Of a stretch of DNA of 64,000 nt, positions 3,602-30,149 are shown one piece after another. The stretch's first letter is position 1; every line of letters starts with the position of its first letter. The position numbers were made by a program, and so were the translations under genes. The stretch comes from Thelephora terrestris (Eukaryota; Basidiomycota; Agaricomycetes; Thelephorales; Thelephoraceae). The stretch is from positions 1,736,001 to 1,800,000 of the forward strand of contig WIUZ02000005.1 in the NCBI GenBank assembly GCA_015956445.1. Reading direction: 5' to 3'. Under the pieces are notes generated by a model that saw nothing but the letters and a program-made list of their open reading frames with translations, was not told the origin of the DNA and ran no database searches.

Positions 3602-6480
3602 TCACATACACTCACAATCAGAATCTGTTTCATCGGAGGCAGCCTGACCCTCCTTCGCTTGCTCTATATTCCAGATGAGATCTTTGCAGTTCTCTACATC
3701 CTTTGCTGCTCCAATATTCTTGTATGCCTCGAGCGCGCACAATACCTCAGACATCGCCTCTTCAAGCTTGCCCTCTTCAAACAGGATATCAGCCCATTGT
3801 TCCATCACGCGGCCCTGTAAATACACATCATTGACAGCGCATGACTTGGCTTGTTCGATGTGAGCGTGTGCATCGTTGAACTGGTGTTTGCCAGAAAACA
3901 GCTGCGCCATGGCGTAATGGATCCAAGACTGCTCATCGGGCCATTTAAAAGAGGTCGCGATTCTGAGGGCTTCCTCGAGATGGTGTATGGCCTTCGCTCC
4001 CTCGCCCTTCAAACGATATATGCGACCAAGAACACGATGAGATTGACAGGCCTGAAATTCTTCGCCTTTCTCCGGGAGGAGTCCAATCGCACGAGATGCG
4101 GCCTCTTCTGCAGCATCATACTGTTCATTGTCATATAGCAACCGAGCAAGGTTCAGCTGACATTCTGCTTGTGCCGCTGTGTCGCCGAGGCGTTGAAAAA
4201 TGGCCAACGCTTCCTTTGCGTGTTGTATTCCTTCCTTGTGGAGGCCCAGTTGCCGGTCTGTATCAGAGAGCGAAAGTAACGCGTTAGCAATGGAATCATC
4301 ACTCCCACATTCTCTCCTGAGCCCCAGGACTTGAGTAAGGAGTCGGTGTTCTTCTGATAGATTTCCGATTTCTCCAAGCAACCGTGCGAGGTGAAACAAG
4401 CAATCACGCTTGGGGGGATGTTCATCGGGAAGCCCTTCTATCTTTTGCCTCAGTACGGTGTACCGCGGCTTGTGCCAATAGAGGTGCAACAAAAACTTTC
4501 TACATGCATTCCAGACGTCGTCCGAGTTTGCGTCGATAGATGTGAAAACATTGAGAAGGTGCTCGACATTGACATCTTCGGACACGATCCACCGCGTATC
4601 CCCAAAAGTGGGTAGGTTAGGATCAAGTTCTGCCGACAACCGGGTGAAGTAATGTTCCTTGACTGTGCAGAGGAGTGGGGAAGACGTGGGATCCTTGGGA
4701 GAAAGGTAATCGCGGAGTGGGGCGAGCATCGTGACGAATTCCTCGTTTCGGTACGTCAGAGAAAGGGCGCAGAACGCGTCGAGGATGGTGGATCGGTTGA
4801 AGATGGTGGGGAATAGCCAGTCAAGATTGTTCTCGTCGACCCCTTGTGGGAAGAACGCGATGACTCCGAGCAGCCCCCGGGTGTCGGGGCCAAGTGCTTT
4901 GAACATCGGAGAGGCAAGTGAGAGCTCGATCGTATCGGCAAGGCTCTTGTTGTGCCCTGTCTGAAGCACACCCGTTTGGCGTCGCTCCCACTCCCTGGCC
5001 AACCGATTGTTGTTCCACACATTTCGCCAGGCGACGGTTGCCAGCAAGTTGATTGAGAGCGGGTGAAAGTCGAGTTGCTTCAAGATGTCGCCAACAACAT
5101 CCGACCGGCCGAGGTCGTAGATACCATAGAATTCGTCGCACCCGGCCTCCACCGAGAGGGTTGGGATATTAAGACGTTTGCAGTCAGGAGGGATGGTGGT
5201 GATGCGGGATGTGATACAGAGACAGATATTGCGGAATTGGGTTAGCTCCTCCACCGCGTCGTAGATCTCCTTCCCGCCGTCTCCCGGTGGGTCGAGGATG
5301 GATTCTGCGTTATCGAGAACGATAAACATTGGTTTGGAGGATAGGTATTGTCGAAGAGAGGCCAGGTCCTCTGGGGTTTCGATGCCGGCACCGGTGACCT
5401 TGGAGAGTTGAGCGAGGAAATTGGTTTGCGAAGCTGGGAACTGATCGCAACGGATGAAGCGTCGGTGATCACCAAACCGCTCCTTGATACGAACGTGGTG
5501 GAGAACGGTGAGGGCGATGGATGTTTTCCCGATCCCGCCTGCGCCAATGAGGGCCATCGGATGGAGCTCTTCGGCGAGATCGACGATCCTCTTGATCAGG
5601 TCATCGCGTCCGAAGCAGGCCCTCGGCATAGGGGGAGGCAATTCTCCAGGCGTGCTAAACTGGAGCGTAAGGTACTGGATCGCTTGAAAATTGAAGTCCC
5701 TGACCTAGTTTGATTCTATGCAGTTGTCAGTATTCTTGTGGGCCGAGTGAGCCTCACGAGCTCTTACCGGGCGAACCTGACCACGGATCTCCTCCCGGAG
5801 CTTTGAAACCTCCCCGTCAATTTTGGAAACTGTTGCTTCGGTTTTTGAGGCTGTCGCGTTGGTGTCTATGGCCAACTCGGTCTGAAAGATGATGAATGGG
5901 TGACGACCGAGCAAAAAGGGACTGGGCGTACGTGGAAGACCTGAAGAATCCTGTTAAGTTCTGACCACCAACCCGCGATCTGGTCCTTATCGTTTCTGGA
6001 ACGGACGAATCTGGAAAGTGGATGGCGCCCACTCTGCTTGGTGACTTTTCCTCGAATCTCCTCAACAGTTCTGCGGCCAAAAGCGTTGTCAGCGGGCGAT
6101 CCAAACTATGTGCCGTCGACCCGACTCACGCCTTCAGCTGATCTATCGCCTCGCATAAGCATTTGCTGAAGTCTTCTTGCTTCGTCTTGTCCATCCCCCG
6201 CTTGAGGGTTTCGCAGATCTTGGCGCAGTGCAGTCCGAGGTCGACGTAATCTTGTTCGTTGGCCATGGTGTCCTGGGCGAACGTGAAGCGGGTGCACATC
6301 CTCGCAGAGTAGAAACGAATTTACCTTGATCATACCCAGGAGGATGCTGACCGAACCGAAAACGGCCTTGGCGGGTGTGGCACTCGAGATCTCTTTCGCA
6401 AGACTGAAACCATCGATGGCCAAATTCAACGCGGAGATGGCGCCGTCCCGTCCCTTTGGCCGCTTGTATTTTGTAGCCAT
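3602..6480 (-). CDS. NLR-like STAND NTPase, NB-ARC with C-terminal TPRs
   Basis: Complete five-exon gene, about 890 residues. Exon 1 starts at the ATG at 6480 (MATKYKRPKGRDG) and ends at a GTAAAT donor near 6325. Exons 2-4 encode the rest of a helical N-terminal domain (about 190 residues). The last exon, from about 5711, begins VRDFNFQAIQYLTLQF. It carries the NTPase: P-loop GAGGIGKTS, FIRCDQFPAS, kinase-2 MFIVLDNAES, sensor CITSRITTIP, a GLPL-like FHPLSINLLA, and a winged-helix-like part (GVIAFFPQGVDENNLDW). The C-terminal 250 residues are TPR-like helices (EGIQHAKEALAIFQRLGD, AIHHLEEALRIA). Such proteins are known to act as cytoplasmic switches in fungal self/non-self or immune-like responses; the ligand here is unknown. 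It is head-to-head with the pseudogene at 7338. No lesion was seen. Confidence 0.9.
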
Positions 6481-7337
6481 CGTCGAAGGTCGAGGTAGTT
6501 GCGATAAGACTACGTGGCAGACCAAATGAGAACTAGTTCTGTGCAAACAGCGCCAACTGATGCACAGGATCTCGAGCCACACGCACCCAACGTTTTGGCC
6601 ATTGTTTCCTAGTTCGGACACCGGCACGGTCCAGCAGGGACCAGTTTCATTCCAGCCAGTCGAGAGTTTCAACTGGATTGTTCGTGCCCGTCAGAGAAAG
6701 ACCTGTGTCGAAACCTTGTGCGGTTTTCTGGATCAGATGAATCGTATGGCTTGCAGCGCTCATTCATTCTTCGCGCCAGATGTTGTCACAGAACCCGGAT
6801 GATAATGCCCAAATACATCCTGACTGGAGGACACTATCGATCAACTCCCCGAGTCTGTAATTCCACACCCACGGAGTTCGTTTTCTCATATCGCTCCCCC
6901 TTCTCCCAGGAGCTCTTCGTCCGGGTGATTTTCACCTCCGTGCGCGCGCGCCATTCCGGGTCTTCTTTTTTCCTTGCTCGTTCACATGTTTGTAATGATT
7001 ACATGTGCTCTTTGACACTCCGTACCACTCAATGAACAGGATACGCTGAGGATCATACCCTCCGACAACACCAGTAGAACATTATCCGATAGATCGTCGA
7101 GATTTGGCACACGAGAGCGAGGATAGAGGGCGTGAATGCGATCGTTCTGTTCTGAAGGGCTCGAGGGGTTGGACCAGGTCACCATTGGTGGCGTGAGGGA
7201 ACAAGTGGCTGACCGATCACGCTTCCGGGAATCCGAGACGAACAGCCCGCCTCGTCGCTTATCCTTACTTGGGTTCCGTCCCTTTCTTATACCCTGCGCG
7301 CCGCACCCTCCTCTCACAGCCACGCCGAGTTTCGACC
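6481..7337. other. Divergent intergenic region of NLR pair B
   Basis: Gap between head-to-head NLR genes, homologous to 745-1398 but about 200 bp longer, mostly through extra sequence around 6590-6730 and 7000-7080. It must contain the promoter of the intact leftward NLR at 6480. No exon and no named motif was identified. Confidence 0.6.
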
Positions 7338-9187
7338 ATGGACTCGATGCCTCAACGACCAAAGGAGCGGGAAGACGCCATCCTAGCCTTGAACGTGGCC
7401 ATTGAAGTTATCGATATCGCAGAGAAGATCTCGAGCACCACGCCAGCTAGGGCCGCTTTCGTCTCCATCAACGCCATTCTCCTCATCATTAGAGTATGTT
7501 CCCTCCGGATCCACGCCGGTCGGTTGTTAACTAAGGCACACAGGATTCTGTGATCAACGAAATGGAATACGTCGACCTAGGACTGGCTTGCGCCGATGTG
7601 TGCAAAACGCTAGACCGGGGATTGAAGGGAAGACGGGCGGACGAGCTCAACAAGTCGGTTCTCGATGCGATTGAACAACTGAAGACGTGCGTGAACTCAG
7701 CAGGAGTGTATTCTATCCATGATTTACAGCACTTGACACATCTTTCGATCATGCAGGACTACGGAAGAGATCCAGAGAAAGATCGTAAAGCGGGGCAAAA
7801 GAAGCGTGGTTACCCAGCTACTACATACGAATACGAAGAACCATAACCTCGAAAAAGAGGCGATTGCTACCTGGAGGTCGGACCTCAAGAAGGTTCTTGT
7901 AGTCTTCGAGGTGCGTTCTGTGGCTTCCTCGTGGCCATCATTGACCTTACATGTCCAGACCGAACTCGAGATAGACAAACTAGTACCGGTTTCCAATACC
8001 CGTCAGGACGTCCCGGACTCCCGCACCTCTGCCTCCAATATCCATCACGATACTTCGAAAGCCCACCACGAGTCAAACTCCGGTCCTCCCGTTTCCGGGG
8101 TGCAGAACTATGGTTCAAACACCCGTACAATCACTCCTGGCGTTCGTAGTAACACACTGAGACACCGCGAGGACCACGACGGTCAAAGTCGGGCGGTAAA
8201 TGTCACCCACACTCCAACTGCAATTCTGTAATCACTCACCACTGCTCAGACTCGCGCTAGATCGGCGATCTCTGCAACAAGTGGATCTGGCCTCTAATAT
8301 GGTTTCTAGTGCGCCCCGAAAACTAGCACCTGCATCCTTAAGAAACACATCTGGGAATGTTTCCGATGCGTGATCCAGACGGTCGAGAATGGGAGGACGG
8401 GTTTGGCGGTTGTTTTGTCGAGCCCGAGGAGGCGTAAATAGGATGAGCGAGATTCAGACGAGAACAGAGACGAGGAGTTTGATTCAGAACAAGACGGAAC
8501 CGGAGCCGGAGCCGGGATTGAGGATGTCTGGTACAGTGCTCCGAATACCGTGTAGGGCGAAGGGCAAGGGCCACAATGGATTCGAGGCTCGGGGGAGTGA
8601 TATCGATGGAGAAATGAAATGCGTGTCGTTCGACCGTGGACGGAATCGCTTGATCCGCGAGTGACTGCAGGCTCGGGTGAGGCGTCACACCAACGTTCGG
8701 CTCAACGCCGTGGAAAGCCGTGCCTAGGTTTATGAGGTTCATCGCAGTGACCTTAACCCACGGCTTCCGGCATCCGTTGAAAGCGAGGAAGGGACAGATG
8801 GTCAAAATTGGTTGGTGAGCATTACTGGTGTTCCGTTCGTGGTCAAGGCGTTTACCGTTACCGAGAGGTCAGCGATTTCAATGGCTGACAGGCTCATAGC
8901 TTTAACTAGTACGCCTGAATAATCCCCGCCCTCTTCACCGAGGATGATTCGACTGGAGAGATCGTTGGTCTCGCAGAGCGGCTCACTCCAGTTTCTCTGA
9001 TCGGTCCTGGCGGGATTTGGAAGACACCCATCGCCCGGCCACCGTCCCCCACAACGATCGCGTCAAAAAAGATCTTGGTCACAACAACCGGTTCATGCTC
9101 TACGACCAGTTTCTCGCCCCCCTCGCTCACCTCCTCCTGCTTGATGTCTTCGGATTTCTCGATGCCAATTCGGACGATGTCCGAGGC
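7338..9187 (+). pseudogene. Decayed NLR-like gene, copy B
   Basis: Rightward NLR with four well preserved 5' exons. Exon 1 starts at ATG 7338 (MDSMPQRPKEREDAI, with TPARAAFVS). Exon 2 follows AAGGCACACAG near 7552 (EYVDLGLACADVCKTLDRG). Exon 3 follows CATGCAG near 7757. Exon 4 follows CATGTCCAG near 7961 and runs open to 8231. The NTPase is only a ruin: around 8920-9150 one reads LTPVSLIGPGGIWKTP, where the P-loop glycine before KT is Trp, then a degraded HNNRFMLYDQF segment. Kinase-2, the winged helix and the TPRs are gone. A short protein ending at 8231 (N-terminal domain only) remains possible, because exons 1-4 join in frame. It shares its truncation point with copy A. Confidence 0.75.
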
Positions 9188-9640
9188 CTTTGATTTGTGT
9201 CAAGTTTTTGGAAGCCACCAGCCAATTCTGGGAAGCCCTTGGCGTTGCGTCCTCTTTCAACTGGAATATACGGCTGTTCTGGGACCGCCATTCCCTAGCG
9301 AAGGCGGGTTCGGCGACACGAATGGGACACCGAACGCATAGAGTTGCAAGGGTCAACCACACATACCTTTTGGGACGTTCGATGCAGCTACAGGCTAGAG
9401 TTTGCTATTGAAAACCTAGGATCGAAGAGGCGAAGCCCGGGACTTTAGGCCTTTGTCGTGTCTTGTAGACCGCGTATCATGTCGATGGTTTTGTCGTAGA
9501 CGTCTGGATGTCTCTTCCTCACCTTGATTGATAATGGTCCTGACACAAATTCATTCGTGGTCATGTCCCAATGCCGAGCCACTATGTTCTTAGTGAGACC
9601 TCCAGCGCCGAATGCGCCACACCGACCGAGCAATAAGTTA
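9188..9640. other. Intergenic, unassigned
   Basis: No gene recognised. A 75-codon leftward open frame covers 9445-9672 (GLTKNIVARHWDMTTNEF), but its start lies in the SH3BGR fragment that follows, so it is probably a chance or fused frame. The right edge at 9640/9641 is a rearrangement breakpoint (see the next entry). Confidence 0.45.
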
Positions 9641-9687
9641 CGAGTGTTGCAGGTCAAGAAGATACCCTTCACAAGCTACGATTTAGA
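9641..9687 (+). pseudogene. Fragment of SH3BGR-like exon 2
   Basis: About 47 bp encoding RVLQVKKIPFTSYDL, nearly identical to exon 2 of the intact SH3BGR-like gene at 22052-23123 (opposite strand). It starts exactly where the other fragment, at 13655-13754, stops, so one exon has been split and its halves placed on either side of the NLR gene at 10062. Similarity ends just before the codons for ASDEDA. Confidence 0.8.
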
Positions 9688-10061
9688 CGTTCGATCGGTA
9701 ATCGCGTGGACCACAAGCGGTTCCTCACCCACACCTTGAGACTCAGGAGGTGGAATCGCGAACCATGTGGCGCAAAACTAACATTTCGTACGCTCCCATG
9801 CACACGCCTGTGCGCTTTCACGAACCCGGCCCAATATCTCTCTCATGAACCCGGGTGTTCGGCCGATTGGATGGATGCTCGGGATCAAAGGCGTCCACCA
9901 AACCGCGCTGGCCCAGTAGTACGGCTATTCATCAAATCTCGGATGCCGGGCCTGCTTGCGCGAGGCGTGCAAAATGAGATTCACCGCCCATCTGTATTAG
10001 GGTTCTCGTTCTTTCCTCTCTTACGCCACGTCCTCTCCTTGCAACTACCACAACCTTGACG

Positions 10062-12985
10062 ATGGGCCCAAAACCTCAGCGAAAGGAAGGGCGCGATGGT
10101 GCCATCGCGATGCTGAACGTGGCCATCGATGCCCTGAATCTCGCGAAGGAGGTATCGAGCGCCACACCAGCCAAGGCCGTTTTTGGAACTGCTGGTGTCC
10201 TTCTGTCCATGATCAGGGTGAGTTCCCTCTCGAGCCGTGTTTGTAGGCCGATTTTCGGCTAACGTGCGCAGGATTCTGTGGCGAACAGGGACGATTATGT
10301 CGCCTTGGGGCTAGCCTGTGCCGATGTCTGTAGGGCCCTCGAACGTGGATTGGACGGCAGGCGAGCGGATCAGCTCACCCGGTCAGCATTGGAAGCGATC
10401 GGGCAGTTGACGAAGTAAGTCATGCCATTGGAGATGCTCGGTGTTTCCGACTCGCTCACCGGCCATCCGATCGCAGGGCCATGGCGCAGATCCAGAGGAG
10501 TGTCATCAAGCTGGGCAAACGAAACCGTTTCTCTCGTGTTCTCCACGCGATGAGCGATAAGGACGCGGTCGCTGGGTGGAAGTCGGAACTCGATAGAATC
10601 CTTCAAATCTTCAAGGTTCGTTCCATCTTCCCTTCTCTGTCCACGCTATTGACCGCCAATTTCCAGACCGAACTCGCGCTACACACGGACGTGGAAGTTT
10701 CTGATACTCGCCAGGATGTGGCGAACACTCGCAAGCTGGTTTCTGATATCCACTGTACCGTGGTGAAAGGCCAGGAATGGAATCAAAAGGTGGGTAGCCA
10801 CTGCGCTCCATCCATTATTTTCAAAGCCTTACAATCGCTTAGACTCGAGCCAGGTTTGCAATCTCAGTTATCGCAACGTATCCGGGCCCTTACATTTGAA
10901 CACAGCATTCCCGGGGAATCACCTCCCCCACCGCCACGGGCTTGTTTCGGACGGGATGAGCTGATCGAGAAGGTCGTCGGTCGTGTCGAAAGCCTCACTC
11001 CGATCGCTCTCATTGGTGTGGGCGGGATCGGGAAAACATCGGTCGCCTTGACCGTCCTCCACGACGATCGCATTAAGAAACGGTTTGACGAGAACCGGCG
11101 GTTCATCCGCTGTGATCAGTTCCAACCTGCGTTGGCCGATTTCCTCAGCCGGCTCTCAAAGGCCGTAGGTGCTGGCATCGAAAATCCAGAAGACTTGACC
11201 CCCCTTCGACCGTTCCTACTCTCCAAGGAAATCCTCATTGTGCTTGACAACGCCGAGTCGATTCTCGACCCACAGGGATCCGATGCGAAGAAAATCTACA
11301 CAGTCGTGGAGGAGCTGAGCAGAATGGACAATATTGGGCTCCTCATCACGTCCCGGATCACCACGATACCTTCGGATTTCAAGCGTTTGGACGTCCCCGC
11401 GATTTCGATGGATGCCGCGCGCAGCGCTTTCTATCGGATTTACGACAAGGAGGAACGGCCCAATGTGATCGACAACATCCTCGAACGACTCGACTTCCAT
11501 CCGCTTTCGGTCACTTTACTGGCCACTGTTGCGCATCAGAACAATTGGGACAGCAGTCGACTGGCCAGTGAGTGGGAACTGCAACAAACGAACATGCTTA
11601 GGACGGAACACAATGACAGCCTCGCCGCGACAATCGAGCTCTCCCTCTCCTCCCCTCTGTTCAGAGAGCTTGGCCCTAATGCCCACGAATTCCTGGGAGT
11701 TGTCGCCTTCTTTCCACAAGGTATCGATGAGAACAACCTCGACTGGTTGTTTCCCTCCATCCCCGACAGAAGAAACATCATTGACAAGTTCTGTATTCTG
11801 TCTTTGACGTCTCGCAGCAACGGCTTCATCACCATGCTGGCGCCGCTACGAGACTATCTCAGTCCACAAGACCCAAGGACATCTCCCCTCCTCTGCACAA
11901 CAAAGGATTGTTACTCTAGCCGGCTCCGGTTACTGGGTGATCTCGAACCCGACCAGGCGGGGTTCAAAGAATCACAGTGGATCAGATCGGAGGACGTGAA
12001 TGTTGAACACCTGCTCAATGTCTTTACATCCTTCGGCATGGATTCGGACGACACCTGGGACACCTGTGCTGATTTTGTGAATCATCTCTGTGAACACAAG
12101 CCACGGTTCACTGTGTTGATGCCAAAGATAGAAGGACTCCCAGATGACCAAGGTTCCAAGCGTCAATGCTTATTCCGGCTCTCGCTGTTGTTTTATTCAC
12201 TTGGAAATGTTGTGGAAGCAAAGCGGCTCCTTACTCACACCTTGGAGCTAGAGAGAAGGCAGGGGAATGATGATCGGGTTGCCCGCACATTACGGAGCCT
12301 AGCTGACACAAACCGGATGCTAGACCTCTACGAGGAAGGGATACGACAGTCAAAAGAAGCATTGGAAATTTACGAACGGCTTGGCGATGGAGAGGGACAA
12401 GGAAAGTGTTGGAATTTCCTTGGTTGGTTGTTGGTTGATGACGATCAACTCGACGCGGCGGAAGAAGCTGCGTCTCACGTGATGAAACTCTTTCAGGACC
12501 AACACAGAGGATTTTGGATCTGCGATTCTCATCGTCTTCTAGGTAAAATATATCGCAAAACGGGCGAGAGGGAGAAGGCCATCCAACATTACGAGGCAGC
12601 CATCGGAATCGCATCTTCCTTCAACCGGCACGAGGAACTGTTTTGGATTCATTGGTCCCTCGCACAGCTGTTTTACGATGAAGACGAGTTTGACATTGCG
12701 CAATCTCACATTGACCAAGCCAAGTCACACGCGGGTGACAATGATTATTTCCTGGGTCGTGCGATGGAGGAGCAAGCTTTGATTTGGTATAGACAAGGCC
12801 GGCTCGAAGAGGCAAGAGCCGAGATTCTGTGTGCAATCGAGACCTTTGAAAAACTCGGGGATACAGATGATGCGGGGCAGTGCAGAGATCTCCTTCGGTT
12901 GATTGAACAGGCGGCAGAGAGTTCGGACGATTCTGATTCTAATAGTAAGTTTTTTGGATATGATGCCACTTCCTGTCCCTGTTGA
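10062..12985 (+). CDS. NLR-like STAND NTPase, NB-ARC with C-terminal TPRs
   Basis: Complete gene, about 890 residues. Exons: 10062-10217 (MGPKPQRKEGRDGAI, then TPAKAVFGTAGVLLSMI), 10272-10414, 10478 to about 10614, 10666-10789, then 10868 to the end. The 78-nt intron at 10790-10867 keeps frame if retained. NTPase motifs: FGRDELIEKVVGR, P-loop GVGGIGKTS, FIRCDQFQPA, kinase-2 EILIVLDNAES, LLITSRITTIP, FHPLSVTLLATVA, VVAFFPQGIDENNLDW. The C-terminal third holds TPR-like pairs (EGIRQSKEALEIYERLGD, KAIQHYEAAIGIA) and an acidic/Ser-rich end. A GTAAGT at 12945 with a CCTTAG at about 12996 could add a last exon ending at 13133. It is nearly identical to the NLR at 23873-26724 in the other repeat arm, and more distant from the one at 3602. 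Confidence 0.92.
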
Positions 12986-13654
12986 CTCCCTCCTTAGGAT
13001 GTGGTACACCGCCCAGCACCTCTACGAGCACATCCGGGTGAATGTCTCGTTTGTAGACACCGCTCCGAGTTGCAGATCATGCAATTGGGTGAAGGCCCTC
13101 TCACCACCACCACCTCCATCACCTCTTCTCTAAGATATCTTATATCATACTGGTCGACTTGTAACTTGGTACTACCATCACTCTTTGTTTGTTCCACTTC
13201 TCGTCGGTGATCTGCACCACGTATCGCCCATCTCTTTGTCTCCCATGCTGTATATTCCTCGCTTTTCGCGCACCACGGACTGCCACAATAGACAGACGCT
13301 CGGGGTGCCGATGTCCATGATCACAGGAGGAACCTGGCCGGCGATGTGCTGACCTAACGATTTCAGCCTTAGAGCCTGGAGGGACGTAGTTTTGGCTGAA
13401 CAGGGGCATTAAATGTGACGACGAGATACTGTAGATATCTCCTACCCCTTCCACTCAAACACCCACAAAGACGAGCTGCCCTCCTATTCATATTACAGCG
13501 CGCCTTCAAAGAAACTTGATGGATGATCGAGACTCATTTGATCATCTCAGCGCTCGTCTGCGATCAACTGCTTCTACTGTCCTGCTACGCTACCACTCGA
13601 ATCCATACACACAGCCGATATTCGAGTCTTCGACTAGAAAACCAACCGGCATCG
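12986..13654. other. Intergenic part of the left repeat arm
   Basis: No separate gene recognised. The stretch is conserved with 23124-23860 on the other strand, and conserved reading in frame just after the NLR (VFVCSTSRR-like in both arms) may reflect a shared alternative last exon of the NLR genes. The part nearest 13500 corresponds to the promoter of the SH3BGR-like gene in the other arm. Confidence 0.5.
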
Positions 13655-13754
13655 ATGTCTCCCCCAATCGAGATATTCCTCACGACAATCGTTCCGTCTC
13701 CCGCTCTACGGCAACGACAAGGTGATCTGTCCGACGGCGTAGAGTATATTCTGC
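13655..13754 (+). pseudogene. SH3BGR-like exon 1 and start of exon 2, fragment
   Basis: The ATG at 13655 opens MSPPIEIFLTTIVPSPALRQRQ, matching exon 1 of the gene at 22052-23123. The intron is reduced from 111 nt to about 21 nt, keeping only its two ends, and the start of exon 2 (EYILR) follows. Homology stops at 13754, exactly where the fragment at 9641 resumes. The intron remnant argues against a retrocopy. Confidence 0.85.
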
Positions 13755-13820
13755 GAATAACATTATACATATCTGATCCGGAGACGAAATCAACGGCTAT
13801 CTGCAAAAAGAAAGCTTGAG

Positions 13821-15940
13821 CTAGTAAGAAGAGCCAGGTAGGGGATCAACCCAAGACCCGTTCGGGAAGAACGAGGCCGCCTTAGTGTAATCTCCCACAT
13901 CGTTGCCACTCGTGAACTAATGAAGGCCAGAATCAGCCAAAGCACTGCGGAGAGGGAGGATAGATTGACTCACAGCAAGCCTGAAGAAATGAGGCAAGCT
14001 CTGATTGAGCAACGCCAGCGAGAAGCTGGTCGCTGTCCCCCGGAACCTCTCCACATCGTCGATGAGTAATGAGAATCCGTCCCAGCCGTCGCTGTTTGAC
14101 GGCAAGGCCTCCCAAAGCAGAGTCGTATTTTGCAATGGCACTGAGGGGTCGAATGTCGTAGAGTTTGTGAGGAACGCCGGGATCCCAGAGCCGAGGGTCG
14201 CATCTTGACGAAGCTAGAACGCAAGTGTCAACACAAAGAACGATGGGGGTTCCCATTTTGTAGGTCACGAACCTCAATTGCGGTCTGCAAGATCGAATCC
14301 CACCCGAAGGCCGCGCCATCGTTTACAACAAGTCCCAGTAAGAACGCTTGATAAACGGCGGACAACCGCGTAGGAAACGCGGTAGCGGGCAGCAGTAACA
14401 GAGCGACGAAGTAGTGGTGAAGCCTCAACGTCAAACCAGGAAGCAGTGCCAGCACGAGCAGCACAAGTCCTCCTGCGAAGTACCACCCCGCGTAGTGAGG
14501 CAACCAGCCCGTCTTTCGGATGACCCTGACTTGATTAAGGACAATGACCAACACGACGATGACGATGATCAACAGGGCAGTTAACGCTCCAGGTCTGCTC
14601 CTGATATCCGACGCGAGCAACCGGTTGATCGGGATCTTGCCAAACGTCACATTCGCGAGCACGCCAACCCAGTATGGACCGATGTACCAAACCGTAGCTT
14701 CAAGCGGCATCGCCATGAAAGCAGGCAAGACAAACCTGAAGGCCACTCTCCATACGCCATACGCCATGAAGAGGCCAGGGAGAAAGTCCGCGAACGCGCT
14801 GCTTATTGAGGGAGGGACGGTACGGGGTTGAGAAAAGATGATGATGTGCCAATATCCTACGGCGAAGAGACACCAGAAGATAACGATGGGCTTGGGGCGA
14901 AAGAAGAGGAAAAGGAAGGAGGTGAGGATGACGTTCATCGCGAGTGCTGGAATCCGATTGTCTGTACACAGCGAGGAATTGGATGATGAGGATAGTCGGA
15001 ATCCGATGGGGAATGTGGTTGGGAAACCTATGCTGTCGAACCCATGGCCGCTGGTGGGAATGAAGTTGCTGTAGTTGGCGATGAGTTGGATACTCCCGCA
15101 GCCACCCTTCGACAAGGACACGATCCCACTATTGGATTGAACGAGGTTATCGGCACCTGTACCCCGGCTTTCACAACAATCGCTACGCACGCTTGGACCG
15201 CTGCAGAACAAACGAAACTATCGCCACGGTACGTTCCGTTCACATCTCCGCCTCCTACAATAAGAGGGACATATTTCTGGTCTTGATTCCCCACTGTCCT
15301 CGGGTTCTGCAGAATGACGTGGCACCCAGCCGGACACCTAAAATCATAATTTCCATAGTCCGTTGGCAGGCAGTCCTGTCCGTTCAGCCCACACTGGCTA
15401 TTGGCTAGCCAATAAGTACCCGTACAGCCGAATAATGTGTCTGGAGGTGTTTCGAACCATTGGGCTCGTGCAAAGAACGCGAGACCGATGACATAGCCGA
15501 CGACGAACAAGACGAAGAGAAGGGGATGAGTGAAGAAACGTGTGAATCGAATCCACAATGGTTCCAAAAGGAGCGACCACGTTCGATGATTGAAGTTGCA
15601 CGTCAATGAAAGGAAGGGAACGGGGGCTGAAGATCCCGGGAGCGACAATTCAGAAGGTGACTTCTGTTAGATCGAAAAGCCGCGTTGGTGTCACAAAGCG
15701 GCACGCACGGTTTAAATCCCGCTTGGGACGGGGCCCTCTCAAGTATAAGAACGCTTTGGAGGTTATCCGGTATGTTCTGGGAAGATTGCGAGCGAAAGCC
15801 AGTTTGGCCCTGTGTGATATGGGCCTCTCCTGGGTCTGTGCGCCATCAAAGTCGTTGGCACCAAGGATTGGGACGTCCAAGCGAGAGCCTTCTTCATCCT
15901 TCTGGCTCTTCCCTATGGAGTAGGAGATTTCAGAAGACAT
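13821..15940 (-). CDS. LCCL-domain multi-pass membrane protein
   Basis: About 600 residues. Exon 1 starts at ATG 15940 and ends ...RPKRDLN at a GTGCGT donor. Exon 2 begins near 15627 (PPVPFLSLTCNFNHRTW). A first membrane helix (FVLFVVGYVIGLAFFA) is followed by the LCCL domain: CTGTYWLANSQCG, FRCPAGCHV, then FVCSAAVQA joined across a short intron (about 15195-15135) to GIVSLSKGGCGSIQL. At least six further hydrophobic segments follow (about 15000-14300), then a lumenal C-terminus ending GDYTKAASFFPNGSWVDP with the stop at 13821-13823. The fungal family is membrane-bound with the LCCL domain outside the cytoplasm; its role is not established. All joins keep frame. The next gene lies about 300 bp upstream on the same strand. 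Confidence 0.88.
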
Positions 15941-22051: not shown

Positions 22052-23123
22052 TTAGGAAGCAGCCTTATCAGCGTCAGAGGGTGTAGCCTCTGTGACAAGG
22101 TTGTCCTCCTGTTTGACCTCTGGTGGCCCTTCCGTAGGTTTAGTGTCGGGTTCGGGCTTGGTGCTCGGCGGCGTCGATTTGCCTTTCTCCTCACTGAGTT
22201 TGGCTTCCTTCAGTTTCCCGGCGAGCTCTTGAACAACGGCGTCGTGCCCCTCCTTCTCTGCCTTCTCTTGTTTCGCAGGGGCCTTGAAACCCCTCATCAA
22301 ATCTCCTGCCCCCTCTTCCCCGATCAACTCGCTCACGAGATCCATCAAATCCTGTTCGTCAACAGTGACCCCCTCCAATCCGTACTCGCCTAATTCTTCG
22401 CCGACGTTGACTTCCCTTGTACGAGATTTGTCCTTGGGTTTCGTGGGCGTGGGGTTGGGGGAGATCGTTGGTTTGTGCGAAGGATTCATCTCCAGAGGGG
22501 AGTATGCGCCGGGGACTCCGACGGGTTTGGCCTCGAGCTTTTTGGAGGGAGCAAAAAGCTCTTCATCCCATTCTTCGTTGCGGCGGAGGTACCTGTCGAG
22601 GTCGTCGCACTCTACGGCTTCTTCGCTAATTTGAGTCGGACCCCGGTGTAGTCACACACAATAAATGGGGGGCGAGAATTAGGAATGGGGGTTGCATGGA
22701 AGTAGGTGAAACGCACAACTCTTCGTAGCCACCAGGATACACTCCACCAATTAGCATTCCGGGCAGCTGCTGTTTCGCTGAACCCAATTAGACCGATCAT
22801 CTGTTGGTTAACTATTGAGACAGTTGGTTGTTGCACTCACACAACGGTACCTTCCTCCTCCACACCTTCTTCGCATCCTCATCCGAAGCTAGATCGTAGC
22901 TTGTGAAGGGTATCTTCTTGACCTGCAACACTCGTAGAATATACTCTATGCCGCCGTCAGACAGGATTAGAACAAACCAAAATTGGTAGAAGACAGTCCA
23001 AATCGTGTGCGTGATTAGTGTTGGTGGTTGGGGAGACGTGTCGTAAACAGGATCACCTTGTCGTTGCCGGAGAGCGGGAGATGAAACGATTGTTGTCAGG
23101 AATATTTCGATTGGGGGAGACAT
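22052..23123 (-). CDS. SH3BGR-like thioredoxin-fold protein
   Basis: Exon 1 (23123-23057) MSPPIEIFLTTIVSSPALRQRQ; a 111-nt intron; exon 2 from 22945, EYILRVLQVKKIPFTSYDLASDEDAKKVWRRKVPL; then SKQQLPGMLIGGVYPGGYEE and FEEAVECDDLDRYLRRNEEW. This is the full glutaredoxin-like SH3BGR domain (about 95 residues) with no CxxC, as usual for the family. A long acidic, Lys/Pro-rich tail of about 150 residues follows (EQDLMDLVSELIGEEGAGD). The family is a small cytosolic adaptor without known enzyme activity. The gene lies at the edge of the right arm of the NLR inverted repeat; broken pieces of it sit at 9641 and 13655. Confidence 0.9.
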
Positions 23124-23872
23124 CGACTCTGGTTGGTTTTCTAGTTGACGACTCTGATATCTGCTGTGTGGGGATTCGAGTGGTAGCGTAGAAGGACGGT
23201 GGAAGTACTAGTAGTCTGATCGCGATGATCAAATGGGTCTCGATCATCCATCAAGTTTCTCAAGGCGCGCTGTATGAATCGGAGGGCAGCTCGTCTTTGT
23301 TGGTGTTTGAGTGGAAGGGGTAGGAGCTATCTACAGTATCTCGTCGCCACATTGAATACCCCTATTCAGCCAAAGCCACGTCCCTCCAAGCTTACGTTCT
23401 AAGGCTCAAATAGTTAGAGTTACTTATGTTAGCACATCTCCGGCCAGGTTCCTCCTTTGATCATGGACATCAGCACCCCAAGTGTCTGTCTATTGTGGCA
23501 GTCCGTGGTGCGCGCGAAAAACGAGGGATGTACAGCACGGGAGACGTGGAGATGGGCGATTCGTGGCGCAGATCACCGACGAGAAGTAGAACAAGCGAAG
23601 AGTGATGGTAGTACCCAGTTACAAGTCGACCAGTATGATATAGGATGTCTCAGAGAAGAGGTGATGGAGGTGATAGTGAAGGGGCCTTTGCCCACTTGCA
23701 TGAATTGCAAATCAGAGCGGTATCTATGAACAGGACATTCATCCAGATGTGCTTGTAGGGGTGCTGGGTGGTGTGCCACATGCTAAGGAGGGAGTCAACA
23801 GGGACAGGAAGTGGCATCATGTCCAAAAAACTTACTATTAGAATCATGATCTTCCGAACTCTCTGCCGCCTG
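23124..23872. other. Intergenic part of the right repeat arm
   Basis: Lies between the SH3BGR-like gene and the tail of the leftward NLR and is conserved with 12986-13654. It should contain the SH3BGR promoter. No independent gene recognised. Confidence 0.5.
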
Positions 23873-26724: not shown

Positions 26725-27174
26725 CGTCGAAACTCGGGATAGCCGCGAGGGGATGGTGTGGTCTGAAGGTTGGGAGGGAGAACCCGAACCGCAATACAAG
26801 TGGGCGGTGCCTAGTGCGAGCAGCCTGCCAGCGTCTGATGAGTATATCCCCTTTTAAACCGCGTTATTCTCACCTCTGAATTCAATGCTGGATTCCAGCC
26901 TGGTCGGTGGTAGATTTCAAGCTACAGAATCCACCAAGATCTCGCTTTCAACATCGTGTCCCAAAGCAACGTGAACGCGGGCCGCCCCACTCGTCTCGCC
27001 CCCGCTATACCTTCTTTTGCGCAAATAAAGCCGATTGGTTGAGAGGTTACCAACATCCAACGTCCGCAAAACTAACTTAAGCAACAAAATAAGTCCAAAT
27101 GAGACGTCCCAAAACCACACATGCGAACAACACTCCTCCGTTACAACACGGTGCTTAGCAGCACAACAACCCAG
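26725..27174. other. Intergenic, NLR promoter side
   Basis: Upstream of the leftward NLR and downstream of the CAS1-type gene. The part next to 26725 is conserved with the upstream region of the twin NLR. It contains a TTTAAA-like stretch near 26852. No gene recognised. Confidence 0.5.
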
Positions 27175-30149
27175 CTACACGCTCTCAGCAGCTGGCCACA
27201 TCAAATTTAAAATCCACATCGCAACCAATCCAAGCGACAACCTCCCCACCAACCCAACCTCCGGCCACTCCTTCCTTCGCGACAGGAACGCCGTCGAGCT
27301 GGCATCCCTCGTCGTCGTAGCAGGACTCTCCGCCAACCTGTCCACCCATCGAACAGGTCGTATCGGGGTATCGGGTTCGAAAGGTATCCGCTCACCGCTC
27401 CCGTCCTTTGGCTCGTCTTGATCGTTGTCAGTGATCAGCGGTAGCGATTCGGACGGAGACGCGGTGGCGGATGTCCTTCCGGAAGGCGTTAACATGTTTG
27501 AAGACCCTCCACCAACACTGGTGTTGGCGTTGGCGTTGGCGTTGTGGGTCGGCAAGGAAGACGGTTCGGAACCCTTCCCAGATCCACATATCCAACCGGT
27601 AAACACCGTCGTGGCTTGCGCAACCTGGTTCGATAACCACACGAAGATCGTCGTCGTAACGATCACGTTTGGTATTCTCCACCTCGTCCAGGGAATGACG
27701 ATCAGCAGTCCCTTGGTATCCGCCGCCAACCACAGGTGGTACTGCATTATGAACGTCTCCAGCGAACATTTCCCGATAAACCCGAACACCTGGGAAGAGG
27801 CAGATCGTAACGTAGGATTGGCGTTTCTGAGAATGGCAAACGAGATGACCGGGATCCACGAAATGTATGGGTGCCAGTGGTTGTAGGTGAATTTCGATGG
27901 TTGCAGCAGTTCAAAGGCGAAAAACCAGACCATCCCCACCGCGGAAACCCCGATGGACACCTTGACGACCATCGGCCATAGGGGGTGGTCAGTCAGCCTG
28001 TGATCCCGAACCTTCATATACGCGATGGCGGTCAACATCCCGAAGTAAACGATCCAGTAGTCGAGCTGAAGTCGAAACGAGGATTCCTTCGCCGACCAAG
28101 GGATGTTACACGCTCCCTCCAGCACGGAGAAAATTTCCTTCAAAATCCATTCCTCGTTGATGATAAATGTCGTGACGCTCATAGCAGCGAGGACCTTGCA
28201 TATGAGGAACACGGTTCGGTCATTGTACTGAGAGCCGATAGCCATGGTGACGTAGACGACGATGTACCAGAACGAGACCAACGGCGCAAAGTAGTAGAAA
28301 AGGTAGTCGGTGTTCATCACGTATGCGAGGATGATGGTGAGCAAGTTCAGCCTGACCATGACCTAGATACAAGTAAGCACGACTAGGATCATTCATGAAT
28401 GAAACGGTCACCTGTGCAATGCGAAGGAAGCCGTAGTCGGCCTTCTTCACGTAGAAAACGGTGTGGCCATAACCTGTCATGAAGAGGTACGCGGCCACCA
28501 AGACACGAATTGGGTTGTAAATACCGGAGATCTTGGAGGCTCCGGTGTAATGGTAGATCAAGATAGCGACTGCAGAACCAGAAACATCAATCCAGCGACG
28601 GTGTGGAGAAGTTCGTCAGGAGACCAACTTTGCATCCAGCCTTTCCATTCGTCCGTTTGTTCTCGATTGAGGAAGCCGAGGTCTTTGTCGGCCCTCTTGA
28701 CGGTCGCGAGCCCAACAAGCAAAGCCAGGACGGATGAAGAACCAAAGAACCAGGGATCGAACTGTTTTTGTTCCTTGAACCAGAAGCTCGTCCGGTCAGC
28801 GACATACATGAGTGCCACCGCTCCACTCATGATGAAAACCGGTCGGTGCTCGTCACTGATCCAAGTTGCAGGGTTGATTTTACCTGCAGAAGTGGAGTAA
28901 GTACTCTGGTCACTCAAGTGAGGTGGAAAGACCGACCCGCATGATAAGAATAATACCAGGACACTGGAGCAACAAGGCACACGATAGATATAACGAAGAA
29001 ATGCGGCCACGAGGGGCTAGGGTAACTCCTGCAGCAAGTTTTATCCATTGGGTATCTCTTGGGCAAAAAGTCATTGCACCGGAAATTCAGAAGTAGATTC
29101 GCCTGAGCCTTGATAATGGGGGTCGAAAAGTGTAACCCATCCGTCGTCTGTGAATCGTGTAGCATATGATTCAATACCGGTGAAAGGGAAACGCGGTGGG
29201 GAGAGCGCAGTAGTTTGGTCGAGAACGAATCGTGTGGGGAATAGATGCGATGGAACAGGTCCGAGTTCATAGCGTCCACATCGGATATGCGAATTGTGTT
29301 TGCTCGTTCCGGTGAGAGCTTTGAGATCACGGGTTCTTCGACAGGTAAGAAGACGATTTGGTCGGCGAGTGGAGGTCTTGCGTTTCTGATGGTCTCGATG
29401 ACAGCCTCCACGCGGGCTTCCCATGCAGGAAGACCACCAGAGTCCTGATTCCTCAGATACCACAACCCAGTACCCAACACCAACAACGCCGGACGATCTG
29501 AATTCAAGGAGGGTGCTCGATCGGTACCAGTGGGGTGAACCAGTCGCGAGTATGACGAGTTCATGTATGGATCCCAGTAGAAAGACAGCTGGACTTTGTT
29601 TTCCGCGTCGAGGGTATAGTTTGAGTGTTTGTGGTCGTCATCTGGCGGTGCGTCTGGTAGCTTTGGATCGACGATGTTGGCAAATTGGAAAAAGAGCTGT
29701 CTCGTGATGGAATCTCCGACGAAGACGACTTGTCTTGAGCGGAAACACGTCGAGGTGTCTTGGGGAGTATATATGTTCAGCATACAGCCTGCATGTTTCA
29801 GTCCGTTAGAACGAGGTCGACAACATCGCAAGTGCCAGCTCACGTACCATCCGGCTGCCAGTTTTTGAAGACGGAATCAAGCCATCTGCCTCTATGTAGC
29901 AAAGCGTAGCATTTGAGAGGATCCGACTGGTCTGCAGAAGTAACCAAGGAAAAATATTGAATGCCCAGAGTGAGGGCCGGACCGCGCGTCAATTGGATGG
30001 TATTTGATGACGTTAGTATCGAGCGGGATCCACGTACCAAGCACAAGGCCAGCGAGTCCGAGAATCACGATGGAGCATATGAAGAATAATGACAGATATT
30101 GAGGGAACAAAGGATTCAAGTGCACTTGAAGACGTCGTGACGAGCCCAT
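27175..30149 (-). CDS. CAS1-type glycan O-acetyltransferase
   Basis: About 870 residues, homologous to Cryptococcus Cas1p and human CASD1: Golgi multi-pass enzymes that O-acetylate glycans. Exon 1 starts at ATG 30149 ([19 protein letters not shown]) with a signal-anchor helix. It then reads [25 protein letters not shown] joined to [15 protein letters not shown], and the lumenal SGNH-type hydrolase domain with [14 protein letters not shown] (nucleophile Ser), WYLRN and TTDGLHFS (Asp-x-x-His). About ten or more hydrophobic segments follow ([51 protein letters not shown]). The tail is Ser/Pro-rich and contains an Asn-Ala repeat from a TTGGCG hexamer run near 27516-27542. Both catalytic motifs are present, so it is probably active. 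Confidence 0.92.

Follow-up and report, generated by a model that had tools for sequence, protein, structure and literature searches.

The signature of a permuted insert is already known from wine yeasts and cattle. In cattle, the duplicates of the KIT colour-sidedness translocations Cs29 and Cs6 were reportedly attributed, by Durkin et al. in 2012, to a circular intermediate; that case is said to be much larger than the fungal copy described here, and it concerns an animal and a known phenotype. The fungal copy lies in a 64,000-nucleotide stretch of the Thelephora terrestris genome (C45:1736001-1800000, hereafter the window), whose gene content is typical of fungi and where an NLR gene stands between the two parts of a split exon of SH3BGR. 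The new twist is that this NLR is a hybrid.

In wine yeasts, the 17-kb region B of Zygosaccharomyces bailii is found as insertions with circularly permuted order (Galeote et al. 2011, PMC3053389). That paper gives breakpoints without repeats, 2-3 shared bases at four junctions and a target little changed, and its authors judged microhomology-mediated end joining unlikely for region B. The fungal copy resembles region B in its permuted order and in these breakpoint features. Unlike it, it is a single insertion and its unit carries a hybrid NLR, whereas region B was horizontally acquired, occurs as independent insertions in several forms and was shown to have a functional autonomously replicating sequence. 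In a human screen for segmental duplications mediated by extrachromosomal circular DNA (eccDNA), the sign looked for was a pair of blocks that keep the same direction and swap their order; cases explicable by tandem duplication were dropped and, going by what its authors say, seemingly none made a new coding-gene copy (Takahashi and Innan 2020, PMC7188851). The fungal copy shows this very order relative to its donor. In Magnaporthe oryzae, likewise a filamentous fungus, eccDNAs carry genes, and eccDNA-mediated translocations were sought in 306 genomes with a pipeline limited to non-repetitive regions, none being reported (Joubert and Krasileva 2022, PMC9694575). No earlier report of a permuted fungal NLR copy was found in the literature searched, as far as its accessible text goes.

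The locus was studied by BLAST and base-level alignment, DNA searches of the genome (40.6 Mb, 60 contigs), trees with approximately unbiased (AU) tests and Pfam profile matches. The donor side, called the twin, reads acyltransferase gene, NLR, spacer, SH3BGR exon 1 and exon 2, and the part of this order from the NLR onward is the one given for the intact arm by the initial annotation. The copy reads second part of exon 2, NLR upstream region, NLR, spacer, exon 1 and first 14 bp of exon 2. Over the long common part, 10114-13730 aligns with 26693-23047 on the opposite strand at 84.5% identity (3686 columns). BLAST and base-level alignment of both junctions thus bear out the proposal that an SH3BGR exon was split and permuted around an NLR. 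In the twin, 54 residues of SH3BGR exons 1 and 2 match the SH3BGR domain PF04908 (E = 4.2e-7, 30.5 bits, cut-off 21). The copy reads past 23734-23749, where two further NLR loci (d and e) stop matching the twin, and it is therefore derived from the twin side; it postdates the arrival of the NLR next to SH3BGR. In addition, the copy has 21 bp of SH3BGR intron 1, against 111 bp in the twin, which indicates that the copy was made from DNA and not from spliced RNA. The loss within this intron was probably a deletion between two ATCCTGT repeats, as read by eye.

The junctions locate the split to a few bases (a slash marks the border of the insert). The right junction is ...TATATTC TGCGA/ATAACATT, the left one ...AATAAGT/TACGA GTGTTGCAGG, and the twin runs TATATTC TACGA GTGTTGCAGG through the break point. 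The two ends of the copy are adjacent bases of exon 2, with a 5-bp overlap (one mismatch) at 22932-22936 and zero exon bases lost, so that the ends of the insert abut in the donor. The borders had first been set at 9641 and 13754, with insertion between 9640 and 13755; alignment shifts the left end to 9639 (AAGT/TACGA GTGTTG) and the right end to 13756 (...TATATTC TGCGA/ATAAC), and the flanks stop and resume at 9638 and 13757. The 48-bp exon 2 piece has one mismatch to the twin (whole-genome E = 5.5e-16); the genome matches to 9601-9760 number three, and for this piece the twin is the only other one. At 200,000 random joins, at least 3 bases were shared in 1.6% and at least 5 in 0.1%. For two independent ends on a ~4.1-kb unit, the chance of lying no more than 5 bp apart is about 0.3% (11/4118, by arithmetic and not simulation). 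The weight of the case is carried by this bystander exon, which is not part of an NLR and is otherwise single-copy.

Table 1. Positions in the window of the copy, its donor and the adjoining features (T, twin NLR type; K, C58-type NLR, with members C58a, C58b and C58c; d, e and f, further NLR loci).
Feature	Position	Strand	Basis or remark
Copy, whole	9639-13756	+	~4.1 kb; inverted relative to twin
Left overlap copy, TACGA	9639-9643	+	insertion junction
SH3BGR exon 2, second part, 48 bp	9639-9686	+	47/48 identical to 22936-22889 (-)
Filler AC, 2 bp	9687-9688	+	alignment
62 bp of coding sequence of NLR f, TPR part by eye	9689-9750	+	59/62 identical to C45:1848501-1848562
Upstream region of C58-type (K) NLR	9751-10061	+	26/228 sites differ from C58a over 9751-9982
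NLR gene, open, six exons by hand model, 893 aa	10062-13041	+	unassigned N-terminal part, then NB-ARC/STAND NTPase and TPR repeats
Switch point: 5' half C58-type, 3' half twin-type	10899-10930	+	near start of NTPase exon
C58a-nearer patch inside 3' half	12301-12699	+	41/399 differ from C58a, 63/399 from twin
Spacer upstream of SH3BGR, twin-type	13042-13654	+	78/613 sites differ over 12997-13625
SH3BGR exon 1 copy	13655-13721	+	6/67 differ from twin
SH3BGR intron 1 remnant, 21 bp	13722-13742	+	twin intron 1 = 111 bp
SH3BGR exon 2, first 14 bp, ending TGCGA (right overlap copy 13752-13756)	13743-13756	+	alignment
Twin arm	26970-22884	-	alignment
Twin NLR segment	23734-26970	-	between Cas1-type acyltransferase gene and SH3BGR
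Acyltransferase gene, 3' part, duplicated at locus d	26971-27583	-	sequence matches
Twin SH3BGR exon 1; intron 1; exon 2 start	23123-23057; 23056-22946; 22945	-	alignment, Pfam
TACGA in twin exon 2, point where copy splits	22932-22936	-	alignment
Decayed NLR relics in left flank, outside insert: NB-ARC part; near 3' end	8959-9113; 9371-9439	+	71% to locus d (156 columns); 75% to locus f (69 columns)

By its predicted domains, a STAND NTPase followed by repeats, the copied gene is a fungal NLR. TPR_12 lies above its cut-off (E = 2.1e-20), and NB-ARC (E = 9.5e-5, 22.2 bits, cut-off 23.5) and nSTAND1 (E = 2.2e-5, 24.7 bits, cut-off 27.1) lie slightly below theirs. Its relatives were sought by a genome DNA search that gave 51 matches, the best 40 of 172 candidates being scored. 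The trees, built without a broken NLR (C58:1910.5-1913.2k) and the remoter hits of that search, held 11 sequences in the 5' half and 12 in the 3' half; locus e is absent from the 5' tree, as an element interrupts it. Upstream of copy position 10326 the alignment row of locus e is this inserted element and not NLR, which affects its identities and distances in the 5' half. Informative sites, at which twin and locus d agree and differ from the three agreeing C58 NLRs, were counted without locus e.

The two halves of the copied NLR do not share one history. In 9983-10899, 153/161 informative sites are C58-type, 4 are C45-type and 4 neither, and in 10900-12300 the C45-type takes 100/109 and the C58-type 7. 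A tree that forces the copy to group with twin and locus d in the 5' half is worse by 116 log units (AU p = 4e-38), and one that forces it with C58a, b and c in the 3' half is worse by 164 (AU p = 1.5e-4). The copied NLR is a C58-type 5' half fused homologously to a twin-type 3' half. Further downstream, the C45-type is seen at 2/6 informative sites of 12301-12699 (C58-type at 4) and at 17/19 of 12700-12944. No sign of a recently replaced 5' half was seen in the twin, which differs from locus d at 94/885 sites in the 5' half and at 249/2023 in the 3' half. As a separate observation, in 12300-12944 the copy shows more change from the twin at first and second codon positions (70/430) than at third ones (27/215).

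At third codon positions, the copy differs from C58c at 22/194 sites in the 5' half and from the twin at 48/467 in 10900-12300. Noncoding divergence, counted on preliminary intron limits (intron 4 was later extended to 10867), is 31/308 on the 5' side and 78/613 in the twin-type spacer. Both halves are thus about equally diverged from their donors and may, on these counts, have been joined at one time; when the halves were dated apart, the confidence intervals overlapped. On the same preliminary limits, intron 1 shows 0/54 differences from C58c and intron 2 shows 10/62, a mosaic that suggests later gene conversion from C58c-like NLRs on top.

The left part of the copy draws on more than one NLR. 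A check suggested by the initial annotation, of 9688-9930 against the DNA upstream of the twin NLR, gave no match, and the upstream region of the twin aligns only from about 9982. From the left junction, 48, 2 and 62 bp (112 bp in all) precede the K upstream region, and the 62 bp match C45:1848501-1848562, within a 681-aa open frame of NLR f. NLR d has an f-type NLR as its immediate upstream neighbour (C45:1846-1853k), and C58c has an f-like one (67%); f before K is therefore a known neighbourhood.

The best reading of these data, held with barely better than even confidence, is a hybrid circle that was formed by recombination between NLRs in direct repeat, opened at TACGA and inserted by microhomology. 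At the start, a K NLR would once have lain downstream of the T NLR and SH3BGR in the same direction (T5'-T3' ... SH3BGR ... K5'-K3'), with an f-K pair assumed to have stood downstream of SH3BGR. Homologous crossover between the direct repeats would release a circle with a K5'/T3' hybrid NLR, spacer, SH3BGR and K upstream region, for which the homologous point at 10899-10930 is a possible closing point. The circle would then open at TACGA within exon 2 and be captured between 9638 and 13757, at a site with a matching short sequence, through microhomology-guided joining. Opened in this way, it would read exon 2 end, K upstream, K5'/T3' NLR, spacer, exon 1 and exon 2 start, which is the observed order. 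The stretch from exon 2 to K upstream would have been cut to 112 bp, on insertion or in the circle, with 62 bp of f-type NLR remaining, and the insertion would yield a hybrid NLR whose reading frame is open, beside a dead piece of SH3BGR. The hybrid NLR, at first sight an argument against a circle, is the necessary cargo of one made in this way. Of the claim that a circle holding the NLR, exon 1 and part of exon 2 opened inside exon 2, the swapped order, the abutting ends and the single-copy marker stand. Plain excision from the twin locus is not supported, since the 5' half and upstream region belong to a different NLR type and 62 bp derive from yet another NLR.

Several points weigh against such a circle. 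No K or f NLR was found between SH3BGR and the insert now, the C58-type NLRs found sit on another contig, and the reciprocal T5'/K3' hybrid is absent among the 11 loci with both halves in the trees. Only 112 bp are left of the region in which the original content between exon 2 and K upstream should be visible. The patch 12301-12699 is nearer to C58a than to the twin, so that the 3' half is not purely twin-type, and a tree of 12301-12940 groups copy and twin with a support of only 63. Flank searches of this genome found no empty site: the right flank matches itself alone, and the 20 other matches of the left flank all fall on query positions 558-737, a short NLR relic. Moreover, a control scan holds three swapped pairs within NLR sequence whose donor ends are also at most 10 bp apart, and two-ended templated repair yields an identical order.

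Microhomology-mediated break-induced replication (MMBIR) and other templated insertions join pieces of several loci at microhomology. A repair of this kind, two-ended (MMBIR or synthesis-dependent strand annealing type), is weighted about half as much as the circle and is on the whole unlikely. Both ends of a staggered break would carry TACGA and anneal at SH3BGR exon 2. The left end would copy 48 bp outward, and the right end would copy exon 1, spacer and NLR 3' half before switching to the 5' half and upstream region of a K NLR, the extended ends being joined with filler. The short left patches (48, 2 and 62 bp) and the homologous switch at 10899-10930 are explained in this way without a circle, and the similar divergence of both halves fits a single event. 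However, the two ends must have annealed to the same 5 bp in a single donor independently, and copying must then have run in opposite directions; templated insertion alone does not predict that both ends abut in the donor, as they do here.

Separate events are improbable. Twin sequence would have replaced the 3' half and downstream region of a resident K NLR, and the 48 bp of exon 2 would be an independent repair filler. The NLR relics already carried by the left flank and the later conversion from C58c-like NLRs made likely by the two introns are in keeping with such a history, but the filler would then begin by chance exactly where the right end stops.

Slightly less probable again is a linear copy from a tandem donor, the false-positive pattern named by Takahashi and Innan (PMC7188851). 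Unequal crossing over would have made a tandem of the form [SH3BGR]-f-[K5'/T3' NLR]-[SH3BGR], a linear stretch of it, bounded by exon 2 in each of the two SH3BGR copies, would have been copied, and the tandem would later have been lost. In its favour, swapped order is common among these NLR loci. In the control scan (698 BLAST pieces; pieces below 40 bp and a foldback element in locus e dropped; pairs counted from both sides), 297/1060 same-strand block pairs among the fetched loci were swapped, and swapped order alone was rejected as a sufficient sign. Donor ends at most 10 bp apart were seen in 3 of the 40 swapped pairs listed; by eye, two of these belong to adjacent tandem NLRs and the third reflects an overlap inside locus e. 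Abutting ends alone therefore weigh little within NLRs. The copy itself scans with a gap of 110, because its long BLAST piece ends at 23047 and does not reach across the shrunken intron. With a tandem donor, ends within 5 bp would be chance, at the 0.3% calculated above, and genome DNA searches found no second copy of SH3BGR, the spacer or the downstream region among the best candidates scored. No adjoining tandem copy thus explains the insert; a tandem since lost could do so, at the low probability given to this reading.

An assembly artefact is very improbable. At third positions the copy differs from each donor by ~10%, and apart from the short NLR relic its flanks have no second occurrence in the genome; it is therefore not a mis-joined copy of either donor.

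Returning to the circle, the movement of single NLR genes between fungal loci is rarely visible, and here an exon of a bystander gene, otherwise single-copy, acts as a yardstick that places both insertion ends to within a few bases. If the circle is real, a new receptor frame has joined the N-terminal half of one family to the NTPase-TPR part of another, one event explains copying, relocation and domain swapping, and a concrete product is predicted, namely a circle of 4 kb or more with a K5'/T3' junction. It is a tentative idea, more doubted than believed, that circles copy and recombine fungal NLRs in one step, with a circle born of recombination between paralogs reinserted here and locus d perhaps a second product. 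As for circles being a general route for copying fungal NLR genes, which the initial annotation had suggested, one locus is insufficient to show it. Locus d (C45:1850029-1855538) holds an NLR with its 3' flank and then a fragment of the twin's acyltransferase neighbour (88%), which ends at 26971, exactly where the twin NLR segment starts (26971/26970); the homology of locus e to the twin begins at 26970. Relative to the twin, the order at locus d is again swapped, the ends being separated by a loss of 126 bp, and the locus may be a second circle product. A target-site duplication at the twin NLR (GTTCA near 26971 and 23733) was considered; it is only suggestive and is not shown by the copy.

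The insertion point was also considered as a former reading frame. Joining 9638 to 13757 with one TACGA gives a frame of 95 codons. In Pfam its left piece matches DUF6659 weakly (E = 0.19, below cut-off) and its right piece matches nothing; the joined frame is without a PDB match, and a genome search returns its own two pieces alone. By eye it overlaps the 3' end of an LCCL-domain gene in another frame, and it was therefore not counted as evidence. The LCCL-domain gene (PF03815, E = 2.1e-6) lies on the minus strand at about 13821-15560, with its stop ~65 bp from the insertion point by eye.

Other repeats were observed in and beyond the window. Positions 1-2315 and 5736-8281 form a tandem duplication, with pieces 84-93% identical, beside a minus-strand NLR at ~3842-5656. 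The foldback element inserted in NLR e (C45:1917777-1923568) is 5.8 kb long and apparently has ~35-bp repeats in its inverted arms; GCTCCGCAAAC stands at both of its ends and is a likely 11-bp target duplication. Finally, upstream of the twin NLR (about 26842-26905), ~55 bp match many places in the genome at 81-85% and are perhaps a short dispersed repeat.

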